Below the pieces are notes generated by a model that saw only the letters and a list, made by a program, of their open reading frames with translations, did no database searches and was not told the origin of the DNA. From contig NZ_JAVFJJ010000021.1 in the NCBI RefSeq assembly GCF_030908245.1, positions 589 through 59,342 of the forward strand: a DNA stretch of 58,754 nucleotides, read 5' to 3'. The DNA is from Sinomonas sp. ASV322. GTDB lineage: Bacteria; Actinomycetota; Actinomycetes; Actinomycetales; Micrococcaceae. The position numbers were made by a program, and so were the translations under genes. Every line of letters begins with the position of its first letter. Positions within the stretch are counted from its first letter, which is position 1. Positions 1 through 43,644 of the stretch are shown here, one piece after another.

Positions 1-96
1 CGGTGGGGGACCCGCGGGTGGTGACCCCTGAACGGTGGGGGACCCGCGGGTGGTGACCCCTGAACGGTGGGGGACCCGCGGGAGGTGACCCCTGAA
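1..96. repeat. Three 32-bp tandem repeats
   Basis: Three head-to-tail copies at 1-32, 33-64 and 65-96. Each unit carries the 10-bp palindrome ACCCGCGGGT flanked by GGTGGGGG and GGTGACCCC; the third copy has one T-to-A change that breaks the palindrome. The tract runs off the left edge, so the true copy number is unknown. It lies just upstream of the probable rplY promoter. There are no unique spacers, so this is not a CRISPR array. Confidence 0.9.
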
Positions 97-104
97 CGAG
101 GAGG

Positions 105-1648: not shown

Positions 1649-1678
1649 GCTCCCCTCGCGTCCTCGGCGTCACAAATG

Positions 1679-1706
1679 TGACCCAATTCGTCCCTCAAGT
1701 GGGTCA
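1679..1706. promoter_or_regulatory. Inverted repeat upstream of LAL1
   Basis: TGACCCA (1679-1685) and TGGGTCA (1700-1706) form a perfect 7-bp inverted repeat, centre to centre 21 bp, two helical turns apart. It lies 107 bp before the LAL1 start. Half-sites on the same helix face suggest a dimeric regulator, possibly LAL1 itself, but no binding protein is identified. The same sequence is not visible before LAL3. Confidence 0.4.
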
Positions 1707-1812
1707 TATCCGCCTCACGTGGAACGGATTTGGCGACAGACCCTGCCGGAGTGTCCCGGAGAAGGGGTATCTTGTGCACACTGCATGCGCGGAGGCCATA
1801 TGGGGAGGGGCT

Positions 1813-4530
1813 ATGCGGTGGACTAGTGGTGTCTCCGAGCGCCGTCAGACCGGCGCTCGGTCATTCTCTGCTGACCGGGTCCAGTGGGCCCGGAATGTCC
1901 GCACCGACGAACTCCGTACCGCACAGGACGCGCTCCGGGACTCCCACAGCTACGGCGTCGTGATCACGGGCGAGCGGGACATCGGCAAAGGCGCGTTCCA
2001 GACGGCGCTCGTCCGCTCGCTCGCCCCGGACATCTACGCACAGACCCTGCGCAGCACGATGGTGGGCACCGAGACGCCGTACGGTGCGCTCGCCCCGCTC
2101 CTGGCCCGCCTCCCCGACGAGGACCTCGAAAGTCCCAGCGCAACGATGCGCGGGATCATGGAGACCCTGCGCGAAGACGCGGACGGCCGTCCGGCCGTCA
2201 TCGCCCTCGAAACACCCGGCGGGCTCGACGAGCTGAGCACGGCGACGCTCGTCAACCTCATGATGACCGGCACGGCGAAGGTCATCGTCGTCGCCAACCG
2301 CACGAGCGACCTCCCTGAGGACTTCCACTGGATGCTCACGGAACAGCGCATCCGCGAGATCCAGCTCGATCTCGTACCCTCGGAGAAGACCGAGGACGTG
2401 CTTCGGGAAGCCCTTGGTGGAATCGTGCCGAGGACCGTTGCCCAGATGCTCCACGCGATGGCCCACGGCAACCCCGAGATCCTCTATCGGATCGTGGGGG
2501 ACTTCCTCCTCTCCGAGCAGCTGCGCTCGACCGATGGGGTCTGGACCCTCGCCGACGACGCCGAGTCGGCCCGCAGCCGCGAGATCGACGACGTCGTCCG
2601 CACCCGCGTCGAGCGCGAGCCTCCCGAGGTGCAGACGGGAATCGAGGCGCTCGCGTGCGCCCGCAGGCTTCCCCTCGATCGACTCACGGCGGTCTTCGGC
2701 GTCTCGACGGTCGCCGCGATGGACGAATCCGGCCTCATCCAGGTCGAGGACGCAGACCGACACTCGGTTTCGCTCGCGGACCCGGTCATGGCCGACGTGG
2801 TCCGCGGGTGGCTGAGCATTCCGCGACGGCGCGAGCTGCGCGCGCTCGTGATCGGCCCCGAGGAGCCCCCGCTCGCGACGCTCGGCGTCGTCGAGCTCCT
2901 CGGCTACGCGGCCTGGACACGCGAATGCCAGACCGTGCTCCCGGCGGCCCACGCGATCGCCGCGGCCATCGCGGCGCTCAAGCTCAACGACCCGCGCTTC
3001 GCGCTCGACTGCCTCGAGGGTCTCCCGCACGTGTGCGCGCTGTGGGCTACCGTGCAGCGGCTCCGCGCCAACGCGCACCTCTCCCTCGGCCTCCCCATCC
3101 AGGCGCATGCCTTCCTCGAGCAGGTCTCCGAGGATGAGCTCGCCGCGCTTTCGCCCGTGGACTTTGCCGCGTTTGTCGAGTCCCTCGCCGCCGTCAAGCG
3201 CTCGACGCCGGGGCGGAGCGCCGAAGTGCCCGCGCTCATTGTCGAATCGCGCACGCGGCTCCTCGTGACCTCGGGCCTGAGCGACGTGGACGACGACGAG
3301 GTCCGGCACGCGATGGCGATGCTCGAGCTTGTCGAGTTCACCGACGCCGCAGCGAGGGGCGATTTCGCGCCGATCCTCGAACGCCTCGAGCTCGCCGCGG
3401 CCGGCGCTCCGGGCTGGGACGATGAGCTCCGCCTGAGGGCCGCGTGCCTCCTCATGCAGGCCCAAGTCATGCTCGGGCGCGAGGACGAGGCGCTCGCGAC
3501 GCTCCACCGGGTCTCGAGCGAGCTCGGCGGCCCCGCCGGGACCGCACGCGTGCGGCACGAGTTCGCGGACCGGGCGTTCGACGTGCTCCTCTACAACGGG
3601 CATTGGCGCCAGTGCCTCGCGCTCGTCCGCTCGGCCGGCCACACGACCGTCCCGAGCCTGCGCATCGAAGGCGCCAAGTATGAGCTCGCGGCCGGAGTTG
3701 CCCTCGTCTACGCGGGCCGCGGCTCCGAGGCCCTTTCGCTGCTCCTTGCGGCGATCGTCCAGCTCGAACAGGGCCGCGGCCGCCCGTACCTGGGCTGCGC
3801 GTACGCCGCGGCGGCGTTTGCGTTCGCCCAACAGGGGGACGCCGCGGCGGCGCGCACCTATCTCGACAAGGTCGAAGGCTGGGTGTGGCCCTGCAGCTAT
3901 TCGGTCGCCGCGTCGATGGAGTTCTGCGCCGACATGGCCCGCCGATGGATCGGCGAGCGTGGCGCCGCAGCGCGCCTCGTGGAGGCCGCGCGCGAGGACA
4001 TCCGAGCGGGCCGGTGGACGATGGCCGGCATCAAGCTCGTCGGTGCCACGGTGGACGCGGGCCTCGACGAGCTCGCGCTCCTCGAGGAGGTGTGCGAACA
4101 CCGCCAAGGGGCCCTCGCAGAACTCGGGCGGAGGCTCGCGCGCGGAACCCGCCTGCGCAGCCTTCCGGACCTCGTCGCCGCTTCCGATCTGTCCGCGGGG
4201 CTCGAACTCGACACGCTCGAGTCGCGCTGCACCGCCGTCGCCCTCGACATTGCCCGGGACACGGGCGACGTCCGCTCCGCGCGCATCCTGCAGGCGAGGC
4301 TCGACCGGCTCACGGGCCTGGTCGAGGTGCTCCCGGTGGTGCCCCAAAGCCTCGGTCCGCTGCTCACCGCGAGGGAGCGCGAGGTCGCAGTCCTCGCGGC
4401 GCGCGGCGAGTCGAACCGAACGATTGCCGAGGAGATGGGGCTTTCTGTGCGAACGGTCGAAGGCCATCTGTACCAGGTGTTCTCGAAGCTGGGGATCACG
4501 TCCCGCGCCGAGCTCGGCGGACTCCTGTGA
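1813..4530 (+). CDS. LAL1: large LuxR-type regulator with degenerate P-loop
   Basis: 905 residues. The C-terminal 55 residues (about 851-905) form a LuxR/GerE helix-turn-helix (NRTIAEEMGLSVRTVEGHLYQVFSKLG). An N-terminal STAND-like ATPase region is followed by a long Ala/Leu-rich helical repeat region (about 380-840) without recognisable sensor domains. The Walker A position reads GERDIGKG (53-60), with Gly in place of the Ser/Thr that follows Lys, and the Walker B position reads VIALETPG instead of an Asp-Asp motif, so ATP hydrolysis may be lost. ATG 1813 follows GGGGAGGGG; an upstream in-frame ATG at 1678 lacks a good site and overlaps the inverted repeat. The stop overlaps the LAL2 start by one base. 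It is paralogous to LAL3, sharing a GTAK...DLP-DF stretch. Its target is unknown. Confidence 0.85.
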   Translation: MRWTSGVSERRQTGARSFSADRVQWARNVRTDELRTAQDALRDSHSYGVVITGERDIGKGAFQTALVRSLAPDIYAQTLRSTMVGTETPYGALAPLLARLPDEDLESPSATMRGIMETLREDADGRPAVIALETPGGLDELSTATLVNLMMTGTAKVIVVANRTSDLPEDFHWMLTEQRIREIQLDLVPSEKTEDVLREALGGIVPRTVAQMLHAMAHGNPEILYRIVGDFLLSEQLRSTDGVWTLADDAESARSREIDDVVRTRVEREPPEVQTGIEALACARRLPLDRLTAVFGVSTVAAMDESGLIQVEDADRHSVSLADPVMADVVRGWLSIPRRRELRALVIGPEEPPLATLGVVELLGYAAWTRECQTVLPAAHAIAAAIAALKLNDPRFALDCLEGLPHVCALWATVQRLRANAHLSLGLPIQAHAFLEQVSEDELAALSPVDFAAFVESLAAVKRSTPGRSAEVPALIVESRTRLLVTSGLSDVDDDEVRHAMAMLELVEFTDAAARGDFAPILERLELAAAGAPGWDDELRLRAACLLMQAQVMLGREDEALATLHRVSSELGGPAGTARVRHEFADRAFDVLLYNGHWRQCLALVRSAGHTTVPSLRIEGAKYELAAGVALVYAGRGSEALSLLLAAIVQLEQGRGRPYLGCAYAAAAFAFAQQGDAAAARTYLDKVEGWVWPCSYSVAASMEFCADMARRWIGERGAAARLVEAAREDIRAGRWTMAGIKLVGATVDAGLDELALLEEVCEHRQGALAELGRRLARGTRLRSLPDLVAASDLSAGLELDTLESRCTAVALDIARDTGDVRSARILQARLDRLTGLVEVLPVVPQSLGPLLTAREREVAVLAARGESNRTIAEEMGLSVRTVEGHLYQVFSKLGITSRAELGGLL

Positions 4531-7181
4531 TGGCCCGAGGGCCGCAGGGCGCGCTCCTCATCGGGCGCGAGCGCGAGACCGCCCGGTGCGCGGCCATGCT
4601 GCGCAGTCGCGTACCCGCGGTCCTGCTCCTCGGGGAGACAGGCGTGGGGAAGTCGGCCCTCGTCGCGGCCGTCCGCGAGGAGCTCTCCGACTACGCCGAG
4701 ACGTTCGAGATCCACGGAAGCCCGTCGCTCCAGCGCGTGCCCTACGGCGTGCTCGCCCCGTTCCTGGGCGGCCTGCCGACCCAGCAGGCCGGCTCGCGGA
4801 TCGCCGTTCTTAGGGCGTTCTGGCGCCGGGTCGAGGAGCTCAGGAATGAGAGCGAGGGCAGCCTCATCCTCGTGATCGACGACGCCCACTCGATCGACGC
4901 GCTGAGTGCCGAGGTCATCGCGGAGCTCGTCGGCGCGGGCTGGGCCCAGGCCCTCGTGACGTCCCCGGACGGCGCCCTGCTCCCGCCCCCGCTCATGCAG
5001 CTGTGGATCGATGGAGGTGCCGAACGCCTCGACCTCGAGCCGTTCACGGAGGCCGAGGCGACGAGCTTCCTCGAGGCCACGTTGGGCAGCCGGGTCCTGC
5101 CGTCCACGGCGCGGCGTCTCTGGCGCGACTCCCAAGGCAATCCCCTGCTCCTGCGCTGCCTCATGGACGAGGCGAGGCGTGCGGGGGCCCTCATCGAGCA
5201 GCGCGGCACGTGGGTCCTCGCATCCGAGCTCGAGCGGCGTGGAGACGGCCTCGTGGGGCTCGTCCGCGACCAGCTCCAGCGACTCTCGTCCGAGGAGCGC
5301 GAGGCGCTCATGCTCGTCGCAGTCGCGCAGCCCGCCGCGCTAGGCCTCGTCGAGGGGCAGTTCGGGGCCGACGTCGTGCGCAGCCTCGTCGCGAAGCGCC
5401 TCGTGCAGCCTCCCACGGGAGCGGACGGCTCGCTGCGGCTGCGGCACGTCGTGTACGGGGACGCGATCTATCAGCTCATTCCGCTGAGCCGCTCGCTCTG
5501 GCTCCAGCAGCTCGCGACGGAGCATCGCGCGCGCCAGCTCGCGACGGCGGACGGCCTCCTGTGCGCCGTCTCGTGGGCGCTCGGCTGCGGACTCCAGCTC
5601 GATGACACGACCTATCTCCGAGCCGCCCAGCTCGCGGCTCGGCTCGGGGAGAATTCACTAGCCCTCCGGGCCGTCGACGAGGTCCGCTCGCCCGAGCACG
5701 CGGCCGACGCGCGGCTCGTCCGCGGCCTCGTCGCCTACAGCAGGAACCACCACGCCGACGCCGTCGAGCTCCTTGAGCCCACCCGCGAGCTCGACGCCGA
5801 AGGGGTCCTCGCCTCAGGCCTCCTGTGGCTCTACAGCCGAGACACCCTCGGGCATCCGCACGACGAGATCGCGCGAGACATCCGACGCCTCGCGGCCGAG
5901 GGCGGCGGCGGCCCCTGGGATCTCCTGCGCCTCGTGTACCTCTCCCTCACGGGTGACTACGCGGGCCTCGAAGTGGGCCTCGCCGCGTGGCGCGGGGCCG
6001 AGGCGACCGAGCGCTCGGCGGTGGAGCGCGGGGTGGCCGCGGCGCTCGAGGCCGAGGTCCTTGCCTGCCGCGGGCTCCTCCTCGAGAGCATGACCGACGC
6101 GGCGCGCGCGATCGAGCTGCTCGCCCCGACCGAGTTCACGGGGTGCCTCTCCGAGTTCGCCGCCCTCCGGTATGTGTATGCGGGCGTGACGGCCGGGCAG
6201 TGGGACGCCGTCGAGTCCATTCCGGTGCGCTTCGCCGCCCCGCCGCTCGAAGAGGCGTCGTTCCAGTTCACGGCGACGCTCCAGTGCGCGCGGGGGCTCG
6301 CGCTTTTGCGGCAGGGCCGATTCGGGCCGGCCCTCGCGATCCTCGAGCCGACGCTCGAGGAGCTCCGCGTGAGCGATGCCCAGCACGTTTTCCGCCTCTG
6401 CGCGGCGGCCGCAGCCTACTGCGCCGCAAAGCTCGGCGATTGGGGCCAGGCCGCCGACTTCCTCGAGGACTCGAGGAACCGGGGGCGGGTCTCGGCGTCG
6501 ATCGTCCGCCCCATCGCGGAGCTCTTCGAGGCCGCCGCCACGTGCGCGATCGAGCCCGATGAGCATTCGATGGCCGTGTTCGAGACGATCATCGACGCCG
6601 CGACCCGCGGGGCCCGGCGCGATGTGTGCCTCCAGGCGCTCTTCCTGTGGTTCGAGGCCGGCCAGCGGGACCGGCTCGACGAGCTCCTCGGGGTCGCGTG
6701 GCCCATGGAGGGGGAGTGGGCCGAGGCGGCCGTCCTCCTCGGGGCCGCGTTCGCCGAGGGCAGCGCGGACTCCCTCCGCTCGGCAGCCGATGCACTCCGC
6801 AGCGCGCTCTACCCCCGGCTCGCGCGAGAGTGCTACGCCGAGGCGTTCGCGCTGCTCGAGAACACCCCGGCCCGCAACGAGGCGCGGGCCGTATGGGAGG
6901 GGCAGCGGGCGTGCGAGGCGGAGCTCGGGGAAACCGAGGTGCAGCCCCAGCCGTCCGCGTCCGCGGGCGAGCTCACACGCCGTGAGCGTCAGATCGTCGC
7001 GCTCGCGATCAGCGGCCTGAGCGACCGCGACATTGCGGACCGCCTGACCGTCTCGGTCCGCACGGTCGAGGGCCATCTCTACCGCGCCTATTCGAAGCTC
7101 GGGGTGAGCAGCAGGGAGCAGCTTTCCTCCGCCGTCGGGCTCGCTCCTGAGAATGAGTACACCGCGCCGCGCAGCAAGTAG
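4530..7181 (+). CDS. LAL2: large ATP-binding LuxR-type regulator
   Basis: 883 residues. It has an intact Walker A, GETGVGKS (35-42), and Walker B, LILVIDDAH (Asp117-Asp118), so it should bind and hydrolyse ATP, unlike its partner LAL1. A LuxR/GerE helix-turn-helix lies at about 815-869 (DRDIADRLTVSVRTVEGHLYRAYSKLG), followed by a short 14-residue tail. The central region is helical, tetratricopeptide-like in composition. ATG 4530 overlaps the LAL1 stop (TGATG), so the two are translationally coupled and probably made in equal amounts. It is closest in layout and HTH sequence to LAL4. The family (MalT-like LAL) activates transcription on a small-molecule or protein signal; which signal is not visible here. 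Confidence 0.88.
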   Translation: MARGPQGALLIGRERETARCAAMLRSRVPAVLLLGETGVGKSALVAAVREELSDYAETFEIHGSPSLQRVPYGVLAPFLGGLPTQQAGSRIAVLRAFWRRVEELRNESEGSLILVIDDAHSIDALSAEVIAELVGAGWAQALVTSPDGALLPPPLMQLWIDGGAERLDLEPFTEAEATSFLEATLGSRVLPSTARRLWRDSQGNPLLLRCLMDEARRAGALIEQRGTWVLASELERRGDGLVGLVRDQLQRLSSEEREALMLVAVAQPAALGLVEGQFGADVVRSLVAKRLVQPPTGADGSLRLRHVVYGDAIYQLIPLSRSLWLQQLATEHRARQLATADGLLCAVSWALGCGLQLDDTTYLRAAQLAARLGENSLALRAVDEVRSPEHAADARLVRGLVAYSRNHHADAVELLEPTRELDAEGVLASGLLWLYSRDTLGHPHDEIARDIRRLAAEGGGGPWDLLRLVYLSLTGDYAGLEVGLAAWRGAEATERSAVERGVAAALEAEVLACRGLLLESMTDAARAIELLAPTEFTGCLSEFAALRYVYAGVTAGQWDAVESIPVRFAAPPLEEASFQFTATLQCARGLALLRQGRFGPALAILEPTLEELRVSDAQHVFRLCAAAAAYCAAKLGDWGQAADFLEDSRNRGRVSASIVRPIAELFEAAATCAIEPDEHSMAVFETIIDAATRGARRDVCLQALFLWFEAGQRDRLDELLGVAWPMEGEWAEAAVLLGAAFAEGSADSLRSAADALRSALYPRLARECYAEAFALLENTPARNEARAVWEGQRACEAELGETEVQPQPSASAGELTRRERQIVALAISGLSDRDIADRLTVSVRTVEGHLYRAYSKLGVSSREQLSSAVGLAPENEYTAPRSK

Positions 7182-9377
<2,196 letters not shown>

Positions 9378-9443
9378 CTCGCAGTTCGGCGGACGTCGCC
9401 GCGGCGTTCGAGGGCCTCCGTAGGGCCTTGCTAGGGGAAATCT

Positions 9444-9458
9444 CCTCCCGCCGGGAGG
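9444..9458. promoter_or_regulatory. 15-bp palindrome between sufU and LAL3
   Basis: CCTCCCG-C-CGGGAGG is a perfect palindrome about 67 nt after sufU and 107 nt before LAL3. It could be a compact operator, or the stem of a very short terminator for sufSU. No U-tract follows. The rest of 9378-9565 shows only the GGGGGGAGG site of LAL3. Confidence 0.35.
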
Positions 9459-9565
9459 TCCCGATAGTAGGACTCACGGTTCCCTGTTGCGCAGGACCCA
9501 CTTCGGCGTACGCTATGCCTGAACTCGGGCGGCGTGTCGCAGCCGCCACCGGGGGGAGGCATGAC

Positions 9566-12292
9566 ATGCTGAGGGATTCTGCCGTCTCGGTGCTGCCGCG
9601 ACGGACCGTCAAGCCGTCGCCTGAATCAGCCGAACGGCAGGCGGATCGCCTCCGCTGGGCAATGCTCGTCCGTCAGGGCGAACTCGACGCGGCAGTCCAG
9701 GCCCTCACGGATCGCCACTCTCTCGGCACGGTCGTCACGGGCCCTCCCGGCGTCGGGAAGTCCTTTCTCGCGAGTGCCGTCCTGAATTCGCTCGGCTCCG
9801 AGATCTACCCGCTGCGCCTGCGCACCTCGACGACCGGACCGACGTCGGACTATGCGTGCCTCGGCGCGCTCCTCGCGCGCCTGCCCAAGGGGGCGTCGTC
9901 GTCGCCCACGGGCCTCATGCTCGCCGTCGAACGCATGCTGCGCGAAGACTCCGGGGGGCATCCCGCGGTGCTCGTCGTCGAATTCTCGGGGGTCCTCGAC
10001 GAGGGAAGCATCGGCGTCCTCCTCCATCTGCTCCTGAGCGGCACGGCCAAGCTCCTCGCGGTCGCCCAGCGCGCGACGGACCTTCCTGCCGACTTCCTGC
10101 GGCTCGTCCGGCGGAGCCGGCTCGCGGAGGTGCCGCTCCGGGGGATTGGGATTCCCGAGACCCGGCTCCTCGTCTCGACCCTCGTCGAGGGGCGCGTCGC
10201 GTCCTCGGCGGTGGGGGAGCTGCACCACGCGTGCGGCGGGAACCCCTCCGCGGTGCAGGGCATCGTGCGCCGCGAGCGGGCGACGGGCAATCTCCACCGG
10301 CGGGGCGGGGTGTGGACGCTCGACGGCGCGGTCGAACCGGAGCAGGGAAGCGGCACGGACGAGATCATCCGTGCCCGGTGGGCCCGCGAGCCGCAGGACG
10401 TCCGCGAGGTCATCGAGCACCTCGCCGTGGCCCGGCGGGTCCCTATCGCGGGACTCGCCGGGCTTTTCGGTTCCGAGGTGCTCGTCGACATGGAGGACCG
10501 CGCACTGATCGCCGTCGACGCGAGCGAGCACCGCTGCGCGTACCTGCGCGAGCCGCGCATGGCCGAGCTCGTGCGCGAGCGGCTCGGGCCCGATCGGCAC
10601 CGCGAGCTCGCGTCGCTCACGTCGCTTGGCGGGGCCGCCGAGGAGTCCGGGCTCGACCGCGAAGACCTCGTCTCCTACGTCGAGTGGACGCTCGGGGTCG
10701 GCGGCACCGCGAACGCGGACCTCGTCGTCCACGCCGCGCGCGCCGCGATCGCCCTGTTCGAGCCGCGCCGCGCCCTCGACCTGCTCGACCGCGCGGGCGA
10801 GCACGACGGGCACGCCGTCGTCGAGGCCGCATTCCAGCGCGCGGCCGCGCTCTCGCTCCTCGAACGGCGCGACGAGGCCCTCACGGTGCTCGATTCGGTG
10901 CCTCGCGCCCGGCTCGACGAGCTCGGCCCCGCGGACCTAGCCCGGCACGCGGCCGCGAAGTCCGAGCTCCTCGCGTGGCTCCCGGAGCGGGGCGAGGCCC
11001 GCGAACCGCTCCACGTCGCGTGGGACTCGCTCGCTCTCCGCGAGGAGGCCGACGCCTCCGAGCTCCGCGGCGCTGCCGAGGTCCTCGACCTCGCCGAGTA
11101 CCGCATGCACGCGTTCCGGGGCGACTTCGCCCCCGTCCTCGACGCCCTCGAGGCCGCGTCCCGCCGGACGGGCTCGAGCGAGGAATTCCGGCGCGAGGCC
11201 TCGCTCCTGCTCGCCCAGGCCTGGGCCGCGTGCGGGCGCGAGGCGGATGCGGCGGCCCTCATGTCCGCCTTCGGCTTCGGTCCCATGGGCCTGGCATCGG
11301 CCCAGCACCCGGACGACGACGCCTACCTCACCGCGGCGTTCTTCGTGTGGATCGCCAACGGAGATTGGAAGCGCTGCGTCGACCTCTTCGAGGGCTACGT
11401 GGACCGGGGCGGCCGGCGGCTGAGCCTGCGCGGCGGGATCGCCGAGCTCTTCCTCGCGATGGCCTACGTCATGGCCGGCCGGGGCGGGTCCGCGCTCGAG
11501 CCCGCCCTCAACGCCGTCGCCCAGCTCGAGGAATTCCCGGCAAGGAACGCTCTCCGTGCGGCCTACGCGACGACGGCCTTCGCCTACGCGCAGGTCGGCG
11601 ACTCGGGCGAGGCCTCGACCTTCCTCGAACGTGCGGCCGGCTGCGAGGCCCTCGCGCCATGGCTCTTTGCGTTCATCTCGGAGTTCTGCGAAGGCATGGC
11701 GCGTCGCTGGCTCGGCGAGCCCGGCGCCGCCGAGCTGCTCCTCGGCCGTGCCGAGGAAGACGAGGCCGCGGGCCGCATGTCCGCGGCCGGCATCAGGGTT
11801 TTCGGGGCGAGCATCCCGGGCACCGATCGCGAGTTCCTGTGGATCGAGCGGCTCGGGCACCGGCGCCAGGGACCGCTCGCGCACCTCATGGCCGCGGTCG
11901 CGGCGGCGTCGCGGCGCAAGGACGCCGAGGCGCTTCTCGACGCGGCCGAGTTCGCCTACGAGATGGAGCTCGACGCGGTCGAAGCCCGCTGCGCGGCCCT
12001 TGCCCTCGATTTCGCGCGCGACCGCGGCGAATCTGCCGCCGCCGGCCGGGCACAGACGCGGCTCGACCGGCTCACTCGGATCCTGCCGACGCTCCCGCTC
12101 GTGCCCCAGGTCCCGGCACCCGTCCTCACCGAGCGTGAGCGGCAGATCGCGGTCATGGCGGCCTCGGGCGCATCGAACCGCGACATCGCCGACGCCGTGG
12201 GCGTCTCGGTGCGAACGGTCGAGGGGCACCTGTACCAGGTGTTCATGAAACTCGGGGTCTCCTCGCGGAGCGGGCTCGACGGGCTGGTCTGA
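9566..12292 (+). CDS. LAL3: large LuxR-type regulator, paralogue of LAL1
   Basis: 908 residues. It has an intact Walker A, GPPGVGKS (59-66), but a Walker B position reading VLVVEFSG without the Asp-Asp, so nucleotide may bind without normal hydrolysis. The C-terminal LuxR/GerE helix-turn-helix (about 854-908) reads NRDIADAVGVSVRTVEGHLYQVFMKLG, nearly the LAL1 version. The N-terminal domain matches LAL1 along its length, for example SGTAKLLAVAQRATDLPADF against a TGTAK...DLPEDF stretch in LAL1. ATG 9566 follows GGGGGGAGG at 9551-9559 by 6 nt. Earlier in-frame codons reaching into sufU were rejected. It is followed 2 nt later by LAL4. Ligand and targets are unknown. Confidence 0.85.
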   Translation: MLRDSAVSVLPRRTVKPSPESAERQADRLRWAMLVRQGELDAAVQALTDRHSLGTVVTGPPGVGKSFLASAVLNSLGSEIYPLRLRTSTTGPTSDYACLGALLARLPKGASSSPTGLMLAVERMLREDSGGHPAVLVVEFSGVLDEGSIGVLLHLLLSGTAKLLAVAQRATDLPADFLRLVRRSRLAEVPLRGIGIPETRLLVSTLVEGRVASSAVGELHHACGGNPSAVQGIVRRERATGNLHRRGGVWTLDGAVEPEQGSGTDEIIRARWAREPQDVREVIEHLAVARRVPIAGLAGLFGSEVLVDMEDRALIAVDASEHRCAYLREPRMAELVRERLGPDRHRELASLTSLGGAAEESGLDREDLVSYVEWTLGVGGTANADLVVHAARAAIALFEPRRALDLLDRAGEHDGHAVVEAAFQRAAALSLLERRDEALTVLDSVPRARLDELGPADLARHAAAKSELLAWLPERGEAREPLHVAWDSLALREEADASELRGAAEVLDLAEYRMHAFRGDFAPVLDALEAASRRTGSSEEFRREASLLLAQAWAACGREADAAALMSAFGFGPMGLASAQHPDDDAYLTAAFFVWIANGDWKRCVDLFEGYVDRGGRRLSLRGGIAELFLAMAYVMAGRGGSALEPALNAVAQLEEFPARNALRAAYATTAFAYAQVGDSGEASTFLERAAGCEALAPWLFAFISEFCEGMARRWLGEPGAAELLLGRAEEDEAAGRMSAAGIRVFGASIPGTDREFLWIERLGHRRQGPLAHLMAAVAAASRRKDAEALLDAAEFAYEMELDAVEARCAALALDFARDRGESAAAGRAQTRLDRLTRILPTLPLVPQVPAPVLTERERQIAVMAASGASNRDIADAVGVSVRTVEGHLYQVFMKLGVSSRSGLDGLV

Positions 12293-12294
12293 CG

Positions 12295-15003
12295 GTGCTG
12301 GGGAGCATGGGGGTGACGTTGGCGGAGAAGGCGGGGATCCAGTCCCTCGTCGAGACGACGCGGCGGGACATCGCGGCCGCCGCAACCGACGCGCTGCGCC
12401 GGGAGGGTGCCGGCGCCGTCCTCGTCGTGGGGGAGGGCGGCTCGGGCAAGACCCACGTCCTCGACGCCGTCGTGGGCTCGCTCGGGAACGACGTCGAGGT
12501 GCTCGAGATCAGCACGGGCCGGAGCCTGCGGTCCGTCATGTACGCGGCCCTCATCGAATGCCTCCCGAAGCTCGCTCCCGAAGAGGTCCAGGACCGCATC
12601 GGCGTCCTGCGCGCGCTGTGGGCTGAGCTGCACCGCCGCTCGGGCGAGGCCGAGCGGCCGATCGTCCTCGTCGTCGACGACGCGCAGGATCTCGACGACG
12701 GCTCGGCGGGCCTCATCGCGGAGGCGGTCGCGTCGTCGTGGGTCAGGCTCCTCGCAGCGGCGACGACGCGGGGCGGGCTCCCGCGGGACTTCCTCGACAT
12801 GTGGCACGACGGGATCGCCGAACGCGTCGAGCTCGCGCCCCTCGGCCTCGCCGAGAGCAAGGCCGCGGCCCAAGAACACCTCGGGGGAAGCCTCTCGGTC
12901 ACGGCTGCTGGGGTGCTGCACGGCCTCAGCGGCGGCAATCCGCTCCACCTCCTCTCACTCATCGACGAATCGGTCGCGGCCGGGACTCTCGTGCGCAAGC
13001 GCGGCATCTGGCTCCTCACGGGCGCGTTCTCGAGCAGCGGCGACGCCCTCGCCGAGTCCGTGCGCAGCAGCATGGAGGCCCTCGCCCCCCCCGAGCGGGA
13101 CCTGCTCATCCTCGTCGCCCTCACCGAGCCCCTCCCGCGCTCCGCCGCACGCGTGCTCGCGGACCGCGAGATCCTCGACCGGCTGACGGACCTCGGCTGG
13201 TTCGTCGAGGGTGCCGACGGGCTGTGCATCCGGCATGCGCTCGAAGCGGACGCCGTGCGTCGCATGACGTCGGCGACCCGGCGGCTGCATCTCTACCGGC
13301 GCGCGCTCGCGCTCGGCGGCGACGAGCTCCGGCAGCCGGCCAACGAGCTGCGCCTCCTCGAACTCGCCCTCGACACGGGCGCGACCCTCCCCGCCGCGGA
13401 ACTCGTCCGCGGCGCGGCCGCCGCGGTGCGCAGCTTCCGGAATGAGCTCGGCCTCCGCGCGGCGTCGCTCGTGGACCGGGCGGCGGAGCGGTCGCTCGCG
13501 CGCGGCATCGTCGCCCGCGCCCACCTCAACCTCGGCGACCCGTCGGCGGCCCTCTCCGCCGTCTCCTCGGGCCCGGCCGTGGCGTCCGACGTGCAGGATG
13601 TGCTCGCGGGAACCCTCGTCAAGTTCACGGCGCGGCTCGCCCTCGGGGAGCTCTCACAGGTCGAGGACGACGTCGCGGATCTCGAGAAGGCCGCCGCCGG
13701 CGTGGACCGGCGCACGGGATCCGGCGGCGTCCCGTACGGCCCGGGCGCGAGGGACGCCGTCCTGCGCAGGGCCCGGCTCATCCGTGCCCTCGCCGCCGCC
13801 GAACGCGCGGACTTCGTCGCGGTCAGTGCGGCGCTCGACCAGGACGGGAAGCTCCCGCACGCGATCGCGGCCCCCGCGATCGAGCGGAACCTCTGGCTCG
13901 TGCTCGACTCCGCCGTGCAATGCGCCGCGGGGCATTTCGATGCCTCGGCCCGCACCGCGGGGCTCGCGCTCTCCGACCCGGACCTCGACGACGAACACTT
14001 CCCGTTCGAGGAGCGCGGGCTCGTGCGGTATCTCGTCGCGTCGCTCCTGGCGGGGGACTGGTCGAGCGTCGACGGCGTCCTCACGGCCTATCCGAATACC
14101 CACCTGCGCTCGATCGTCGTCTTTGGGCCCGGCCTCTATTGCGCGAGGGCGTTCGCGCTCGTACGGCAGGGCCGGGAGCCCGAGGCCGAGTCCATCCTGC
14201 GCGACGTCGTCGAGAACCTCGAGCTCGCGGACCCGCTCCAGCTCCTCGGCGTCGCCTCCGCGATCGCGGCGCGTGCCGCGGCGGGGGCCGGAAACGCGAC
14301 AGCGGCCCGCCAGCATCTCGCGCGGGCCGAGGCGACGGCGGGGCTCGGGAGCGCCGACCTGCGTGACCTCGCCGCGATGCATCGTGCCGGGGCCCTCGAG
14401 CTGGTCGAACCGGGCGCCGGGCTTCCCGCCCTCGAGGCGATCGCCGAGGAAAATCGTGCCGCGGGCCGTCCCGGCTGGGAGCTCGTAGCGCGCATCCTCG
14501 CGTTCGAGCTGGGGGCCGCTGACGCGAACGGCCGCGGCGCCGACCTCGCGGGCTCGGCGGAAGGGCCGTGGGCGGGCGCGTGGGGGGCGTGGGCCCGCGC
14601 GGAGGCCACCGACAACGCCGAGGGCTACCTCGCGGCCGGAGAGCTCTTCCATGGGCTCGGGATGTTCCGGCGGGCTAGGGCCGCGTACGCGCGGGCAGCC
14701 GGCTGCTTCGACCTGGACGGCGACCGGGCGGCGGCCCGGCACGCGGGCGCCCTGGCACGCACGTGCGAGGGCCTGCCCGGATCCGGCGAGGCCGGCGAGA
14801 AGGAAGAGGCGATCCTCTCCTCCCTGCGACTCAGCCGGCGCGAGCAGGACGTCGTGGACCTCGCCGTCGAAGGCCTGAGCGACCGCCAGATCGCCGACGA
14901 GCTCCACCTCTCGGTGCGTACCGTCGAGGGCCACCTCCACCGCAGCTACGCGAAGCTCGGAATCCGCAGCCGCGACGAGCTCCGGGACGCCGTCGACGAG
15001 TGA
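12295..15003 (+). CDS. LAL4: large ATP-binding LuxR-type regulator, paralogue of LAL2
   Basis: 902 residues if the GTG at 12295 is used; an ATG four codons on (12307) is a reasonable alternative and the ribosome-binding site does not decide. Walker A GEGGSGKT (46-53) and Walker B PIVLVVDDAQ (Asp128-Asp129) are intact. The C-terminal LuxR/GerE domain (about 846-902) reads DRQIADELHLSVRTVEGHLHRSYAKLG, close to LAL2. The start lies 2 nt after the LAL3 stop, so the two are coupled. It ends 285 bp before the exopolysaccharide operon, on the same strand, which makes it a candidate regulator of that operon. Confidence 0.87.
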   Translation: MLGSMGVTLAEKAGIQSLVETTRRDIAAAATDALRREGAGAVLVVGEGGSGKTHVLDAVVGSLGNDVEVLEISTGRSLRSVMYAALIECLPKLAPEEVQDRIGVLRALWAELHRRSGEAERPIVLVVDDAQDLDDGSAGLIAEAVASSWVRLLAAATTRGGLPRDFLDMWHDGIAERVELAPLGLAESKAAAQEHLGGSLSVTAAGVLHGLSGGNPLHLLSLIDESVAAGTLVRKRGIWLLTGAFSSSGDALAESVRSSMEALAPPERDLLILVALTEPLPRSAARVLADREILDRLTDLGWFVEGADGLCIRHALEADAVRRMTSATRRLHLYRRALALGGDELRQPANELRLLELALDTGATLPAAELVRGAAAAVRSFRNELGLRAASLVDRAAERSLARGIVARAHLNLGDPSAALSAVSSGPAVASDVQDVLAGTLVKFTARLALGELSQVEDDVADLEKAAAGVDRRTGSGGVPYGPGARDAVLRRARLIRALAAAERADFVAVSAALDQDGKLPHAIAAPAIERNLWLVLDSAVQCAAGHFDASARTAGLALSDPDLDDEHFPFEERGLVRYLVASLLAGDWSSVDGVLTAYPNTHLRSIVVFGPGLYCARAFALVRQGREPEAESILRDVVENLELADPLQLLGVASAIAARAAAGAGNATAARQHLARAEATAGLGSADLRDLAAMHRAGALELVEPGAGLPALEAIAEENRAAGRPGWELVARILAFELGAADANGRGADLAGSAEGPWAGAWGAWARAEATDNAEGYLAAGELFHGLGMFRRARAAYARAAGCFDLDGDRAAARHAGALARTCEGLPGSGEAGEKEEAILSSLRLSRREQDVVDLAVEGLSDRQIADELHLSVRTVEGHLHRSYAKLGIRSRDELRDAVDE

Positions 15004-15141
15004 TCCGCGAGTGATCCGGCCCTGAGTGGCCGTGTGCGCTTCACCTGCCCCTGACGAGGGAAGACACCGTCCCGGCGAGTAGTGCCGGTGCCCCCGAAAA
15101 GCCGACTGCGCAGTGTACGCGTGGTACTTGGTGGCCTGCTT

Positions 15142-15231
15142 GCGTACTCGCCAAGGGTTCGCCCCCGTAGAGGCCGAGAAAGCTCGGGTACCGACTACTG
15201 GTGATTTGCCGTTCCGCGAGGTCTGTACTGG
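15142..15231 (+). promoter_or_regulatory. Three-block shared regulatory element, copy 1 (exopolysaccharide operon)
   Basis: Block 1 is GCGTACTCGCC (15142-15152). Block 2 is CGGGTACCGACTACTGGTGA (15185-15204). After exactly 18 nt comes block 3, CTGTACTGG (15223-15231). All three recur in the same order at 41361-41449 with a total length differing by 1 bp. The surrounding 15004-15288 has no gene but further TACT-N-G boxes: TACTTG at 15125 and an inverted CGAGTA at 15076. Block 3 lies 57 nt before the first gene of the operon, a plausible -10 position, with block 2 as activator or -35 site. Confidence 0.75.
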
Positions 15232-15288: not shown

Positions 15289-16821
15289 ATGTCGGTCGGC
15301 ACGCAGCAGCAGGTAACGCATTCGATCTCGTCATGGGCGCCGCGCCTCTGGTCTGCCGTGGGGCTCGGGAACTCCGCGGCGCGCATCGCCCGCTCCGCCA
15401 AGGCCCAGGCGTGGCCCAGGCGCTACGCCGTCTACCTGTGGGGTGCCGACACGACCGTCGTCCTCGCCGCGGCGACGGCAGGCCTCGTCTTCGGCGACGC
15501 AAGGCCGCAGACCGCGGGGGCACTCGCCGTCGTCGTCGGGCTCTGGCCCCTCGTGCTCGGCCTGTACGGCACCCGGGAGGTTTCGGTCCTCGGCATCGGC
15601 GCCGAGGAGTACCGCCGGGTGGTCGCCGCGTCGTTCCAGTTCTTCGCGGTCCTCGCGATCGCGGTGCTTCTCCTCGGGGACTCGCTCCCGGCGCTCTCCG
15701 TCGTCAACTGGCTTCCCGCGCGCGTCGCCGTCGTCGTCTTCGGCAGCGGCCTCGTCGGGCTCCTCGCGCTCCGCTGGGGCAGCCGCCGCTGGCTGAACCG
15801 CCAGCGGCACATCGGGCTCTACCTGACCCCCGCCGTCGTCGTCGGAGAGGCCGACGACGTGCGGTACGTCGTGCGCCGCATCGCCGCGAGCGAAGGCGCC
15901 CCCTACAACGTGCTCGGCGCGATCCTCCCGGGCGGGCGCCGCGGGCAGTCGCTCACCGTCGACGGCAACCGGCTTCCCGTGCTGAGCTCGACGGACGACG
16001 TCGTCCGGACGGTCGCGCTCAAGAAGGCCGCCGCGGTGATCATCGCCGGGCCGGTCCCGGGCGGGAACAAGTACGTTCGCGAACTCGGCTGGAACCTCGA
16101 GCAGCACGACGCCGAGCTCGTCCTAGCGTCCTCTCTCACGAACGTCGCGGGGCCGCGCATCCACTGGCGGCCCGTCCAGGGCCTCCCGCTCATGGAGGTC
16201 GACCTCCCGCACTACACGGGCGCGAAGCACGTCGTGAAGCGCGCGATGGACCTCGTGCTCGCCGGGGCCGCCCTCGCGGTCCTCGCCCCCCTGCTCGCGG
16301 CCCTCGCGCTCATCGTGCACTTCGACTCCCCGGGACCGATCCTGTTCCGGCAGGAGCGCATCGGCAAGGACGGGCTGCCGTTCGCGATGCTCAAGTTCCG
16401 CTCGATGGTCAAGGACGCCGAGAAGAAGCTCGACGCGCTGGCCTCCGACAACGAGGGCGCGGGAGTGCTGTTCAAGGTCAAGGACGATCCCCGGGTGACC
16501 CGCTGCGGAAAGTGGATGCGGAAGTACTCGCTCGACGAGCTGCCCCAGTTCGTCAACGTCCTCAAGGGCCAGATGAGCCTCGTCGGGCCGCGGCCGCCGC
16601 TCGCACGGGAGGTCGGCGAATACGAGCGCTTCACGCGCCGCCGGATGCTCATCAAGCCCGGGATCACGGGCCTGTGGCAGATCAGCGGCCGCTCGGACCT
16701 CGACTGGGACGACTCGGTCCGCCTCGACCTCTACTACGTCGAGAACTGGTCGATCATGGGCGACCTCATGATCCTGTGGCGCACGTTCCGCGCCGTCATC
16801 GCCCCGGTCGGGGCCTACTGA
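15289..16821 (+). CDS. Polyprenyl-phosphate glycosyl-1-phosphate transferase (EPS priming enzyme)
   Basis: 510-residue membrane enzyme that transfers a sugar-1-phosphate to undecaprenyl phosphate and so starts repeat-unit synthesis. About four N-terminal membrane helices (roughly 45-66, 75-93, 113-131, 144-162) are followed by a CoA-binding-like cytoplasmic part (about 180-300). The catalytic bacterial sugar transferase domain (about 316-510) has KRAMDL, FRQERIGKDG, FRSM, YSLDELPQ, LVGPRPPL and KPGITGLWQ. This is the WbaP/WcaJ/CpsE architecture. ATG 15289 follows GAGGAG; an earlier in-frame ATG at 15232 lacks one. It is the first gene of the thirteen-gene operon and lies behind the shared regulatory element. 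Confidence 0.93.
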   Translation: MSVGTQQQVTHSISSWAPRLWSAVGLGNSAARIARSAKAQAWPRRYAVYLWGADTTVVLAAATAGLVFGDARPQTAGALAVVVGLWPLVLGLYGTREVSVLGIGAEEYRRVVAASFQFFAVLAIAVLLLGDSLPALSVVNWLPARVAVVVFGSGLVGLLALRWGSRRWLNRQRHIGLYLTPAVVVGEADDVRYVVRRIAASEGAPYNVLGAILPGGRRGQSLTVDGNRLPVLSSTDDVVRTVALKKAAAVIIAGPVPGGNKYVRELGWNLEQHDAELVLASSLTNVAGPRIHWRPVQGLPLMEVDLPHYTGAKHVVKRAMDLVLAGAALAVLAPLLAALALIVHFDSPGPILFRQERIGKDGLPFAMLKFRSMVKDAEKKLDALASDNEGAGVLFKVKDDPRVTRCGKWMRKYSLDELPQFVNVLKGQMSLVGPRPPLAREVGEYERFTRRRMLIKPGITGLWQISGRSDLDWDDSVRLDLYYVENWSIMGDLMILWRTFRAVIAPVGAY

Positions 16822-30818: not shown

Positions 30819-32309
30819 TCAGGACGCCTTCCCCGTGTAGCAGGCCAAGGACGTGGGCGGCGCGTTCACGTGCAGGCTCCCCTGCTCGAACGCGGCCGAG
30901 GGTCCGGGCGTCGCCCCGCCCGCGTCCGGCGCGCCCACGGGGCTTTCCACCGTGCTGTTGAGCCCGCCCGACCACGGGGCGCTTACCGTCACCGTGGCCG
31001 GGCCGCCGGCCTGCGACCCGAGCACGAGGACCGAGACCTTTCCCGATGCAGGGTCCGCAAAGACGGATGCACCGTCCGCGCCGGCCCCCGAGACAGCGGC
31101 CTGGATTCGGATGGATCCCGGGGTGACGCATTGCGCGAGCACGGCCAGGACGCCGAACGTCCACCGCGGCGAGTACGTCCCCGCAGACGGGTCGTAGCTG
31201 AGGGCGCCCCAATAGCCCATGCTCCCGTGGTGCTCGTAGTACCCGTCCCACGCGTCGTAGAACTCGAGCCCGCTCGCCCCCTGGTCCAGCAGCTTCTGGG
31301 CTTGAACGGCCGACGCGCGGGCCGTGCTGGCGTCGTTGGGGTTCGGCGCACCATTGTCGCAGCCGGGGCAGGGCCCCGAGAATTCCGTGACCACGACCGG
31401 CTTGTTGATCCCCGCCGCGGCGAGCCTCTTGGGCGCGCCGGCGAGATCGCCGCTGTACGTGTGCACGCCCCACGCGGCGAGGCGGCCCGTGACCACGGGA
31501 TCGTTGGCGAGCGCGGGCAGGTACTGGTCGAGGCCCTTCGACGGGTCGGCGGTGTCTGGCGCGACGAGCCGGATGTCGCTGATCCCTAGGGAGTCGAGCC
31601 GCTCGAGGAGCTTGTGCGTGAGCCGGACGTACTGGTCCGGCGGTACCTGGGGGCCTTCGATGCCGTTCCAGTCCACCTCGTTCATGGGGGCCACGAGCTT
31701 GAAGTCCAGCTTTTCGACGTTCCGCCCGTAGGCGATCATCGTCGCCATGGTCCGGACCCAGTAGTCCTCCTTGTCGGGGAGGATCCGTGATCCGCCCATC
31801 CATGGGGGAACCCCGCCCATGACGTTGAGGATCACTGTCTGGCCCGGCGAGGCCGAGATGTAGCGGATCGTGTTCCAGAGGTCGGCCATCTTGCCGGTGC
31901 TGTAGATCTTGCCGTACGCGTTCCAGTCGACGTCGGTGGGCGAGCCGGGAAGCTGGGTCCGTTCCCAGTCGCCGCGATCGATGATCACGCGCCAGACGAG
32001 CGGTCCCAGCCCCGTGTAGCGGTCGATCGCGGGCTTGAGCTGCCCATCCTTCCAGCTGTGGACGTTGGCATTGACCCCGATGCCGGAGATCGTCTGGTAC
32101 TGGGTCACACCGCCGAGCTGCAGGCGGGACCCCGAGCCCGACTTGGAAGGGCTGGGGCCCAAGGCGCCCGCCCCCTCGCTCACGGTGGGGGACGGGGAAC
32201 CCGTGGGGCTCTGGGGGATCTCCTGGCAGCTGCCCAGAGAGAGCAGCAAGCCGACCGTCAGGATCACGGCGCTCGCCGCGCGGGCGGGCGTCGCGCGGCG
32301 CGCAGTCAC
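30819..32309 (-). CDS. Secreted lipoprotein, clan GH-A glycoside hydrolase-like
   Basis: 496 residues. An N-terminal signal with lipobox LGSC places the lipidated Cys at residue 28, followed by a Pro/Ser linker to about 60. The catalytic TIM-barrel-like domain has the clan GH-A signature: acid/base Glu211 in APMNEVDW, preceded by Asn210, and nucleophile Glu309 in VVVTEFSG. A C-terminal beta domain (about 395-496) follows. Hydrolases of GH39 or GH5 type sit in other exopolysaccharide clusters (PslG in Pseudomonas) and trim or release polymer; that is the likely role. The family number is not certain. Starts with GTG in a 4-bp overlap with the upstream gene. Confidence 0.8.
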   Translation of the reverse strand: MTARRATPARAASAVILTVGLLLSLGSCQEIPQSPTGSPSPTVSEGAGALGPSPSKSGSGSRLQLGGVTQYQTISGIGVNANVHSWKDGQLKPAIDRYTGLGPLVWRVIIDRGDWERTQLPGSPTDVDWNAYGKIYSTGKMADLWNTIRYISASPGQTVILNVMGGVPPWMGGSRILPDKEDYWVRTMATMIAYGRNVEKLDFKLVAPMNEVDWNGIEGPQVPPDQYVRLTHKLLERLDSLGISDIRLVAPDTADPSKGLDQYLPALANDPVVTGRLAAWGVHTYSGDLAGAPKRLAAAGINKPVVVTEFSGPCPGCDNGAPNPNDASTARASAVQAQKLLDQGASGLEFYDAWDGYYEHHGSMGYWGALSYDPSAGTYSPRWTFGVLAVLAQCVTPGSIRIQAAVSGAGADGASVFADPASGKVSVLVLGSQAGGPATVTVSAPWSGGLNSTVESPVGAPDAGGATPGPSAAFEQGSLHVNAPPTSLACYTGKAS

Positions 32310-40997: not shown

Positions 40998-41162
40998 GAG
41001 CACCCCTCCAGTCCCCGGCTCTGGCACAGATCTGGCCTGTGCCGCACTTCCACGGTCGGAACTGGCCCCTCGAGTGGACAAGATGTCTCGGCCGAATCGG
41101 GGATCTACGAGGCTGGATTCGGGTGGTCCGGTCGCGCCCGAGGATCGGCCCCGCGTAGGGGC

Positions 41163-41184
41163 CAAGTAGCGGGCAAGTAGTCGG
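41163..41184 (-). promoter_or_regulatory. Two phased CAAGTAG boxes (CTACTTG on the minus strand)
   Basis: CAAGTAG occurs at 41163 and again at 41174, exactly 11 bp (one helical turn) apart. Read on the minus strand, the second box is CCGACTACTTG, 10 of 11 matching the core CCGACTACTGG of block 2 of the shared element. It lies about 165 bp upstream of the WlbB-like gene, so the same factor may also control the minus-strand operon. Confidence 0.45.
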
Positions 41185-41360: not shown

Positions 41361-41449
41361 GCGTACTCGCCCGCGGGACCGCGGCAGGGCCGAACTGAAA
41401 GCCGGGTACCGACTACTGGTGACCGGCTCGGATCCGGCCGCTGTACTGG
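41361..41449 (+). promoter_or_regulatory. Three-block shared regulatory element, copy 2 (surface-protein pair)
   Basis: Block 1 GCGTACTCGCC at 41361-41371, block 2 CGGGTACCGACTACTGGTGA at 41403-41422, then 18 nt, and block 3 CTGTACTGG at 41441-41449. All blocks are identical to copy 1 at 15142-15231, and the spacer between blocks 1 and 2 is 1 bp shorter. An extra CGACTACTTG box lies at 41329-41338. The next gene starts 130 nt downstream. Confidence 0.75.
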
Positions 41450-41578: not shown

Positions 41579-42331
41579 ATGCGGTGGGCAGTCGGGCAGC
41601 GCGGGAGCCGGAGAGCATTCAGAATGCTCACCTTCGGTTTCGCCGCTGTGCTCGCTGCGACCGCCGTCGCGCATCAGCTGGGGTTGGATGCGCACGAGCA
41701 GCTCCGGGCCGAAGCGGCGCAGCAGCTGGCCGTCTCGGTCCCGGAGCCCTCGACCGCTGTTCCCTCGACGTCGGGGCCCACGGCGCCCATGCCCTCGGCG
41801 CCAGGGTCTCCGGCGTCGAGCATTGGCGCCGGCCCGTCGTCGTCCTTGTCGGCGGTGCATCGCGCGGTGGCCGCCATGCCGCCCACGAAGTTTGCGTGGC
41901 CCGCAGCGGGACTCTCGGTCGACGTCGTCCCCGCAGAGTGGAGCCCGGATCAGCTTGTCGATCCGATCCTCGACTCGAACAACTTCGACCCGGTGGCCCA
42001 CTGGCTCGAGGGTACTGGGCAAGGCGGGGTGGTGCGTCCCGTCGTGCTTGCGGCGCACTCGTGCCATGCCGCCGTGGCGCTGTGCACGGACGCAACGTTC
42101 CCCTTCAACCGCCTCAGCTACTCGGGCTGGGCGCTTGGCCAGCCGGCATCGCTCACCGATGCCGCGGGCCGCGTGATTTCCTGCTCGCTCGACAGTCGAA
42201 GAATCGTCGACAAAACACAGGAATTCTCCTTCCCGAACGATCCGTGCCTCGTCGTCGCATTCTCGTGCAATTACGAGAACCCGGACGCGCAGATTGTACT
42301 TCTGACCTTCCACTGCGGTCAGTGCACTTGA
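41579..42331 (+). CDS. Secreted sortase-fold-like protein, atypical active site
   Basis: 250 residues. A membrane anchor or signal lies at about 17-33, then an Ala/Pro/Ser linker to about 100, then a domain whose order of features resembles class E/F sortases: RPVVLAAHSCH (candidate catalytic His), FNRLSYSGWALGQ, AGRVISCSLDSRRIVDK and LLTFHC (candidate Cys) near the C terminus. The chain ends four residues after that Cys, so the strand carrying the usual catalytic Arg is missing. The domain also has extra Cys residues that could form disulfides. It may be a diverged sortase or a non-catalytic relative; I could not confirm this. It shares a regulatory element with the exopolysaccharide operon and precedes a wall-spanning protein gene. 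Confidence 0.55.
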   Translation: MRWAVGQRGSRRAFRMLTFGFAAVLAATAVAHQLGLDAHEQLRAEAAQQLAVSVPEPSTAVPSTSGPTAPMPSAPGSPASSIGAGPSSSLSAVHRAVAAMPPTKFAWPAAGLSVDVVPAEWSPDQLVDPILDSNNFDPVAHWLEGTGQGGVVRPVVLAAHSCHAAVALCTDATFPFNRLSYSGWALGQPASLTDAAGRVISCSLDSRRIVDKTQEFSFPNDPCLVVAFSCNYENPDAQIVLLTFHCGQCT

Positions 42332-42387: not shown

Positions 42388-43644
42388 ATGAAGCCGATGT
42401 CCCTGTTCTCGGCCAAATACGCGAGCGGCCTGTTCGCGGCCGGGGCCATGGCGCTCGTGGCCGCCGGGGTTGCGACGAGTCCTGCGCTCGCCGCCCCGGG
42501 GGCTGCCGAGGCCAAATCCATCCCCGTCTGCCACCGCACGGACTCCGCGTCCAACCCCTGGGTTCTCATCATGACGGCGAAAGACTCGGTCGTGAGCTCG
42601 CGCCCGCGATACGCAAACGACGTCTTCCCGCCGTTCGCCTATACCGACGAGGACGGCACGGTGACCGACATCCCGGGCCAGAACTGGGACTCGGCCGGCA
42701 TGGCGCTCTACGCTCACGGCTGCTCTGCACCCCAGGCAAGCCCCTCGCCGAGCCCCACCACGACGCCCGTCACGCCCCCGACGTCGAGTGCGCCCGCGAG
42801 CGTGCCGGTCCCGAGTGATCCGGCCCCCTCGTCGTCGGCTCCCGCGCCGAGCTCGCCGGTCCCGAGCGTGCCGCCCACTGTGCCGGTTCCGAGCGTGCCG
42901 GTCCCGGGTGTCCCGGTCCCGAGTACTCCGCAGTCGTCAGCGCCGGTCCCGAGCGTGCCGGCTCCGAGCTCTCCGCCGTCGTCCGCGCCGGTCCCGAGCG
43001 TGCCGGCTCCGAGCGTGCCGGTCCCGAGCGCGCCGGTCCCGGGTGATCCGGCCCCCTCGTCGTCGGCTCCCGCGCCGAGTTCGTCGGCGCCGAGCGTCCC
43101 GCCCACGGTGCCAGCCCCGAGCGTGCCGGCTCCGAGCGTGCCGGCTCCGAGTACTCCGCCGTCGTCCGCGCCAGCCCCGAGCAGCCCGGCCCCGAGCACT
43201 CCGTCTGACCCGCCGTCGAGCCCTGCGGCCAGCTCTACGGCGCCGACCGAGGCCGCCCCGCTTCCCGATCCGTCGTCCCCGCCGTCGGATCCCGGGAAGT
43301 CCCCGACGGCGGCGACACCTGCGGTACTGCCCGGCGTAGGTGCCCCGCCGTCGACGGATCCCCCGCGTGCCGCCGACCCGGCGCCATCGTCGAGCGCTCC
43401 GGCCGACCCGCCGTCGTCCGATCCGGCCATCACGGGGGCCGCACCTGCGGCATCGGCCCAGTCTGTCCAGGCGCAGCAGGCCGCGGGTGGCGAGGGCCTC
43501 GTGAGCCTCCGGGCCCAGACGGCCGCCAGCGCTCCCGCGCCAGACGCTACCGTCTCGAACCTCTTCTTCGCCTCGGGCGCCCTGCTCCTCCTCGGCGCGT
43601 TCGGCCCGGGCATGAGGAACCGCCGCCGCGGGCGCCACGTATAG
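42388..43644 (+). CDS. Secreted Pro/Ser-rich wall-spanning protein with CHRT-type N-terminal domain
   Basis: 418 residues. A signal peptide ends at about ALA (residue 35). A small domain (about 43-112: IPVCHRTDSASNPWVLI ... DIPGQNWDSAGMALYAHGC) resembles an uncharacterised actinobacterial secreted module with a CH-T-S-NP-V pattern. A 240-residue Pro/Ser/Ala/Val repeat region could span the cell wall. The C terminus is a hydrophobic helix (NLFFASGALLLLGAFGPG) and a basic tail, like a sorting signal, but without LPxTG; the residues before the helix read APAPDATVS. A strong AAAGGAGG site precedes ATG 42388. Probably co-transcribed with the sortase-like gene 56 nt upstream. Confidence 0.8.
   Translation: MKPMSLFSAKYASGLFAAGAMALVAAGVATSPALAAPGAAEAKSIPVCHRTDSASNPWVLIMTAKDSVVSSRPRYANDVFPPFAYTDEDGTVTDIPGQNWDSAGMALYAHGCSAPQASPSPSPTTTPVTPPTSSAPASVPVPSDPAPSSSAPAPSSPVPSVPPTVPVPSVPVPGVPVPSTPQSSAPVPSVPAPSSPPSSAPVPSVPAPSVPVPSAPVPGDPAPSSSAPAPSSSAPSVPPTVPAPSVPAPSVPAPSTPPSSAPAPSSPAPSTPSDPPSSPAASSTAPTEAAPLPDPSSPPSDPGKSPTAATPAVLPGVGAPPSTDPPRAADPAPSSSAPADPPSSDPAITGAAPAASAQSVQAQQAAGGEGLVSLRAQTAASAPAPDATVSNLFFASGALLLLGAFGPGMRNRRRGRHV
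42780..43240 (+). repeat. Pro/Ser-encoding short repeats
   Basis: Degenerate 12-bp units, mostly GTCCCGAGCGTG or GCTCCGAGCGTG, encode runs of VPSVPAPS. A longer block (DPAPSSSAPAPSS plus VPPTVP) occurs twice, near 42820 and 43050. Such in-frame repeats are prone to length variation. Confidence 0.85.

Follow-up and report, generated by a model that had tools for sequence, protein, structure and literature searches.

According to the accessible part of PMC3282765, LAL regulators have been little studied. For the prototype, MalT, direct-repeat sites are described in enteric bacteria and a motif overlapping the −35 element in Actinoplanes (accessible part of PMC7567727). For TpdR, a LAL of Rhodococcus jostii TMP1, promoter direct repeats are placed at −79/−65 and −51/−37, the proximal one overlapping the −35 element (accessible part of PMC6099782). 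The promoters described here share with that of TpdR a high-GC actinobacterial host, and would share with it a LAL as regulator and direct repeats overlapping the −35 element (here a putative one), but carry TAC heptamers in place of the proposed TpdR box TnnAAnnGCGGAnTC, and TpdR serves one catabolic operon. From MalT promoters they differ in their target genes and in their motif: the MalT core is GGA(T/G)GA, in Actinoplanes TCATCC-5nt-GGATGA, whereas the conserved columns of 31 sites aligned here are TA-heptamers. Our preferred account of the element is a promoter that would depend on LAL activators and resemble those of MalT and TpdR in layout but not in sequence; the difference in sequence speaks against assigning the site to a LAL.

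The NarL heptamer consensus begins TACY. NarL-type sites resemble the present ones in the GerE-type helix-turn-helix (HTH) and in heptamers beginning TACY, but NarL heptamers form an inverted repeat (accessible part of PMC6099782), whereas those here are direct and abutting. The operator of the SARP regulator PimR likewise places direct repeats of a heptamer ahead of a promoter in an actinobacterium, but these are CGGCAAG with 4-bp spacers (accessible part of PMC5930380). SARP operators have an 11-bp period, in contrast to a period of 7 bp here, and the heptamers here differ from CGGCAAG. No paper on this element was found in the literature searched, and the accessible part of PMC9659744, on LuxR-related genes of an Arthrobacter, mentions no such site.

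We analyzed a window of 58,754 nucleotides from Sinomonas sp. ASV322, in which a 90-bp and an 89-bp copy of the element precede an exopolysaccharide (EPS) operon and a pair of surface-protein genes. Bit scores in the list that follows refer to R1, a profile built from 20 sites that include both copies.

1678..4530, + strand: LAL1, GerE only, at threshold, no AAA match
4527..7181, + strand: LAL2, start codon assumed, AAA domain and GerE
9053..12292, + strand: LAL3, AAA domain and GerE
12295..15003, + strand: LAL4, candidate regulator, AAA_16 and GerE
15142..15231, + strand: whole element upstream of the EPS operon, R1 72.5 bits, R1 training site
15289..16821, + strand: EPS polyprenyl glycosylphosphotransferase, the first gene downstream of the element, PF02397 and TIGR03025
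41361..41449, + strand: whole element upstream of the surface-protein pair, R1 64.8 bits, R1 training site
41579..42331, + strand: surfA, conserved secreted-looking protein with sortase-like residues only, no Pfam or NCBIfam match
42388..43644, + strand: surfB, Pro/Ser-rich, C-terminal hydrophobic stretch and basic tail, no Pfam or NCBIfam match

GerE was thus found in all four LALs of the window and AAA domains in LAL2, LAL3 and LAL4, LAL1 having none at threshold; the four paralogues have the HTH core SVRTVEGHL in common. The first 98 nucleotides of the window (1-98) hold three near-identical 34-nt copies with 32-nt spacing.

The original prediction had described three blocks with fixed spacing at both sites, and its blocks, coordinates, spacing and spans are exact to the base; its eight TACT-N-G positions are correct too. 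GCGTACTCGCC starts at 15142 and at 41361. The 20-mer CGGGTACCGACTACTGGTGA occupies 15185-15204 and 41403-41422 and is the sole 20-mer common to the two regions compared, and CTGTACTGG follows it after 18 nt at both sites, at 15223 and 41441. The recurrence exceeds what chance would give: in the organism's own 4.34-Mb genome GACTACTGGTGA occurs at these two places only (reversed control 0), and the last 12 bases of CGGGTACCGACTACTGGTGA occur nowhere else in its 4,337,630 bases. Allowing up to three mismatches in a 19-mer added one place, C2:60992, which also has a TGTACT hexamer and precedes the gene of a protein of 427 residues whose N terminus looks signal-like; a Pfam search with this protein gave no match. 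Outside the blocks the two window sites share only scattered 8-9-mers. The claim that the DNA between blocks is unconserved thus holds between these two sites, but parts of that DNA (AAGGGTT, AAGCTCG) are kept among the EPS copies of the genus.

The idea of a three-block promoter-like element stands as far as a conserved promoter-like site is concerned. Its third block reads better as a TGTACT −10-like hexamer than as a regulator box. In our reading of the sequence, the site would consist of a distal GTAC box, two heptamers that abut (TACCGAC-TACTGGT), a −35-like hexamer GTGACC overlapping them, 17-19 nt and the TGTACT −10-like hexamer.

15072..15130, + strand: extra upstream GTA boxes at offsets −116, −80 and −71, only partly conserved
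15142..15152, + strand: distal box GCGTACTCGCC, TAC starting 51 bp ahead of the second heptamer
15189..15202, + strand: abutting heptamers TACCGAC and TACTGGT, EPS site
15201..15206, + strand: putative −35-like hexamer GTGATT (GTGACC in most copies)
15224..15229, + strand: putative −10-like hexamer TGTACT, spacer 17 nt
41361..41371, + strand: distal box of the surface site, TAC starting 50 bp ahead of the second heptamer
41407..41420, + strand: abutting heptamers TACCGAC and TACTGGT, surface site
41419..41424, + strand: putative −35-like hexamer GTGACC
41442..41447, + strand: putative −10-like hexamer TGTACT, spacer 17 nt

In alignment A2 of 31 sites, whose invariant columns are not independent evidence because the sites were partly picked by resemblance (the EPS sites among them were reached by orthology), the first heptamer has T at position 1 in 31/31 and A at position 2 in 30/31. 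In the second heptamer, positions 3, 4 and 5 are C in 31/31, T in 30/31 and C or G in 31/31, respectively. The next hexamer is GTGACC-like, and the spacer to the −10-like hexamer measures 17 nt in 16 sites, 18 in 11 and 19 in four. This last hexamer keeps T1, A4 and T6 in all 31 and thus follows TnnAnT, whereas a housekeeping sigma promoter has a −10 of TAnnnT at 16-19 nt from its −35; the departure from TAnnnT counts against our reading. Both heptamers have the same orientation and abut, which sets the proximal period at 7 bp. Of 41 sites, 38 have a GTA[CG] box 49-52 bp ahead of the second heptamer; two more have it at 62-63 bp, about one helical turn further, and one is without it. The direct heptamers and, at a fixed distance, the distal box are present; the −35 is putative, assigned from the sequence.

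Within the genus, an orthologue of the EPS glycosylphosphotransferase was found by orthology, not by motif, in 14 of 15 congeners (62-100% identity), and the element lies upstream of it in all 14, strongly diverged in G004 and G011; in G009 the EPS operon is rearranged and has two copies. The remaining congener, G012, has a partial best transferase match of 45%, a best R1 score of 14.2 bits and neither the element nor a LAL4 orthologue. The pattern CTACTGGT-gap-GTACTGG gave 13 matches in eight of the 15 genomes against one for the reversed control, and R1 matched 22 sites in 14 congeners at 49 bits or more, 20 of these sites being training sites. The surface-pair copy is present in six of the eight congeners examined, exactly those with surfA/surfB; G002 and G003 have neither the pair nor its copy in the stretch compared. 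The element proposed as common to both loci is therefore kept ahead of both across the genus. All 14 element-bearing congeners have a LAL4 orthologue within ~5 kb, and LAL4 and the element show the same presence and absence over the 15 genomes, a co-occurrence that is weak evidence because LALs and EPS genes are linked in Sinomonas. For that reason, we dropped LAL4 adjacency in this genus as proof of the regulator.

Calling surfA sortase-like, as the original prediction did, reflects a residue pattern only, given that Pfam and NCBIfam returned no match. All six copies have an invariant His-x-Cys-His and a Cys near the end (TF-x-CGQC), a pattern that we take to be sortase-like; the usual downstream Arg is missing because the protein ends four residues after that Cys. 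The end of surfB resembles a cell-wall sorting signal with no visible LPXTG, and the G009 copy shares with it an APAPD stretch just ahead of the hydrophobic end. Beside the surface site, CTACTTG repeats were seen by eye near 41160-41185, and nothing convincing was found, by eye or with R2 (a second profile, of 31 sites, none from a LAL cluster), as a site for the minus-strand glycosyltransferase genes located there. On that strand, 37471-40635 encodes one long protein with a WecG/TagA-type transferase and two GT2 stretches, and 32306-37030 a large one, kept beside the EPS cluster in several congeners, in which DMFA2_C, four Big_5 and three DUF4082 stretches were recognised.

The LALs and the EPS genes come apart in relatives. 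Diverged copies of the element precede the EPS orthologues at 10/10 Arthrobacter-type loci (Arthrobacter, Pseudarthrobacter, Paenarthrobacter); R1 recognised four of 19 non-Sinomonas EPS loci (E <0.03), and the remaining Arthrobacter-type copies were identified by visual inspection; the flank of locus L258 is too short to judge. A LAL4 homologue was found at none of these ten loci within the surrounding 9.3-9.5 kb, where positive controls were found, nor at three loci of other genera. In each of the same ten genomes, three to five LAL4 matches lie together on one contig (in G480 and G481 some are partial). In G473, G478 and G482 this cluster follows L25 and Pth and precedes a class-V aminotransferase, the same neighbours as in Sinomonas, and no EPS sugar transferase was found in the 36-40 kb around it.

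R2 matched 11 of 12 LAL loci in nine of the ten genomes (13.2-24.3 bits, E ≤0.004), always on the LAL strand; G476 is the one genome with no LAL-cluster site by R2. At nine of the 11 sites the next called ORF begins 9-686 bp downstream; at L286 the called ORF starts ahead of the site, and L285 has too short a flank. AAA_16 was found in the gene following the site in 4/4 checked. A distal GTA[CG] box, which lies outside R2, occurs 49-52 bp upstream at 9/9 LAL sites (all reached by R2) against a background chance of 0.089 each, giving a nominal P of 3e-10 that ignores relatedness and is too small because the nine genomes seem to represent about four lineages. As a control, 45 loci out of a set of 68, all 45 being actinobacterial EPS loci outside the Arthrobacter type and not LAL loci of other families, scored 7.3 bits or less across 394,468 bases. 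A tree of 16 LALs places the site-preceding LAL of three Arthrobacter-type genomes in one group with LAL2 and LAL4 (support 100/98; inner order not resolved). Within our window, an R2 scan gave a match at 54512-54557 (11.7 bits) and no site ahead of LAL1, LAL2 or LAL3, an absence that, like the one in G476, counts against LAL control. The suggested tie to nearby LALs is supported by comparison, since relatives hold the site inside the LAL cluster while the EPS operon lies elsewhere.

Genome-wide R1 and R2 searches scored 150 candidates per genome. A further R2 search of 149 family genomes at E 1e-4 with stricter filters scored 29 per genome and gave matches in 12 (including G038, G044, G075, G109 and G112, with the matches of G210 falling where those of G473 do); at these numbers, the searches may have passed over weak sites. 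A strict pattern, too strict for diverged copies, matched 11 of 395 family genomes, seven of the genus and four outside it, the latter with five matches, none ending TGTACTGG. A loose TACTGG-gap-TACTGG scan of 198 relatives was uninformative, the reversed control often being equal or higher.

The target set is wider than originally predicted and includes LAL genes, BTAD regulators and glycosyltransferases. Weaker, untrained R1 sites lie ahead of six BTAD-type genes, in G008, G005, G013, G007, G009 and G006, and another such gene in G007 has a seventh site, of 13.6 bits; two of these seven genes were checked in Pfam and the rest are homologues. Two R1 sites precede membrane glycosyltransferases (PF13632) in G010 and G008, a polysaccharide deacetylase near the LAL cluster of G473 has its own site (25.2 bits), and G011 has a weak site (18.5 bits) just past its second LAL match. 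A third, weaker element class was seen ahead of glycosyltransferase-like genes upstream of the surface pair, at L079:17024-17111 (G006) and G009:C1:3018218-3018298. Separately, 11 of 26 BTAD upstream regions (L166-L175 and L178; L173, G000:C10, in the organism's own genome) share a different conserved promoter, approximately ATCCATTGACTGGATTATC, in which an inverted repeat flanks a −35-like hexamer, TTGACT.

From the conserved anatomy, its targets and its presence in LAL clusters, we infer LAL binding, activation rather than repression, and the core promoter. Both window sites are probably promoters of one regulon activated by the MalT-type LALs of the pth-linked cluster, most likely by LAL4 or an assembly of paralogues. 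Once activated, the LAL would occupy both abutting heptamers, up against the −35 hexamer, and another box some five helical turns further up, thereby bringing RNA polymerase to a promoter that is weak (GTGACC, 17-19 nt, TGTACT). The surface pair would then be expressed jointly with EPS synthesis, and in relatives the LAL genes would switch on themselves. A bolder version, which we regard as a tentative possibility, is that the four paralogous LALs form a mixed ring or filament over distal box and heptamers and so drive one positive-feedback coat switch, kept in several family genera, in which BTAD sub-regulators fire together with EPS and surface proteins, as do the LALs themselves in relatives.

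The main rival, in our judgement unlikely, is that a BTAD/SARP-type or other unlinked factor binds the site and that the LAL genes are targets, not binders. A BTAD protein could be the binder because 7 of the 27 BTAD/SARP-like loci searched (of 30 retrieved by protein homology) also carry the site, which would fit BTAD autoregulation, and SARPs too use heptameric direct repeats (accessible part of PMC5930380). The other 20 loci are without it, and its period is not that of SARP operators; G012 has a BTAD homologue at 56% yet no element, and G011 the element yet only a weak BTAD match.

That the −35/−10-like pair marks alternative sigma factor promoters, with the boxes forming part of sigma recognition, appears improbable. 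A spacing that stays at 17-19 nt and an unusual −10 invariant at three positions, in sites partly chosen by resemblance, would suit such promoters, but the distal box 50-51 bp further up would go unexplained, and the LAL-cluster sites have an ordinary-looking TTAATT, TAAATT or TAGATT at the −10 place. A recent duplication of promoter DNA, leaving two copies with no shared control, could account for the identical 20-mer and is extremely improbable: the flanks of the window sites differ, and both site classes are kept separately in six genomes, so that congeners contradict it.

Few LAL DNA sites are defined, and the regulon proposed here, with MalT-type LALs as activators, comes with an explicit site, fixed geometry, a candidate regulator and a target list. 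These soil bacteria can be cultured, and the site makes control of EPS and surface genes in Sinomonas and Arthrobacter directly testable. One promoter design ahead of coat genes and, in relatives, of presumed regulator genes suggests a self-controlled cell-surface switch.
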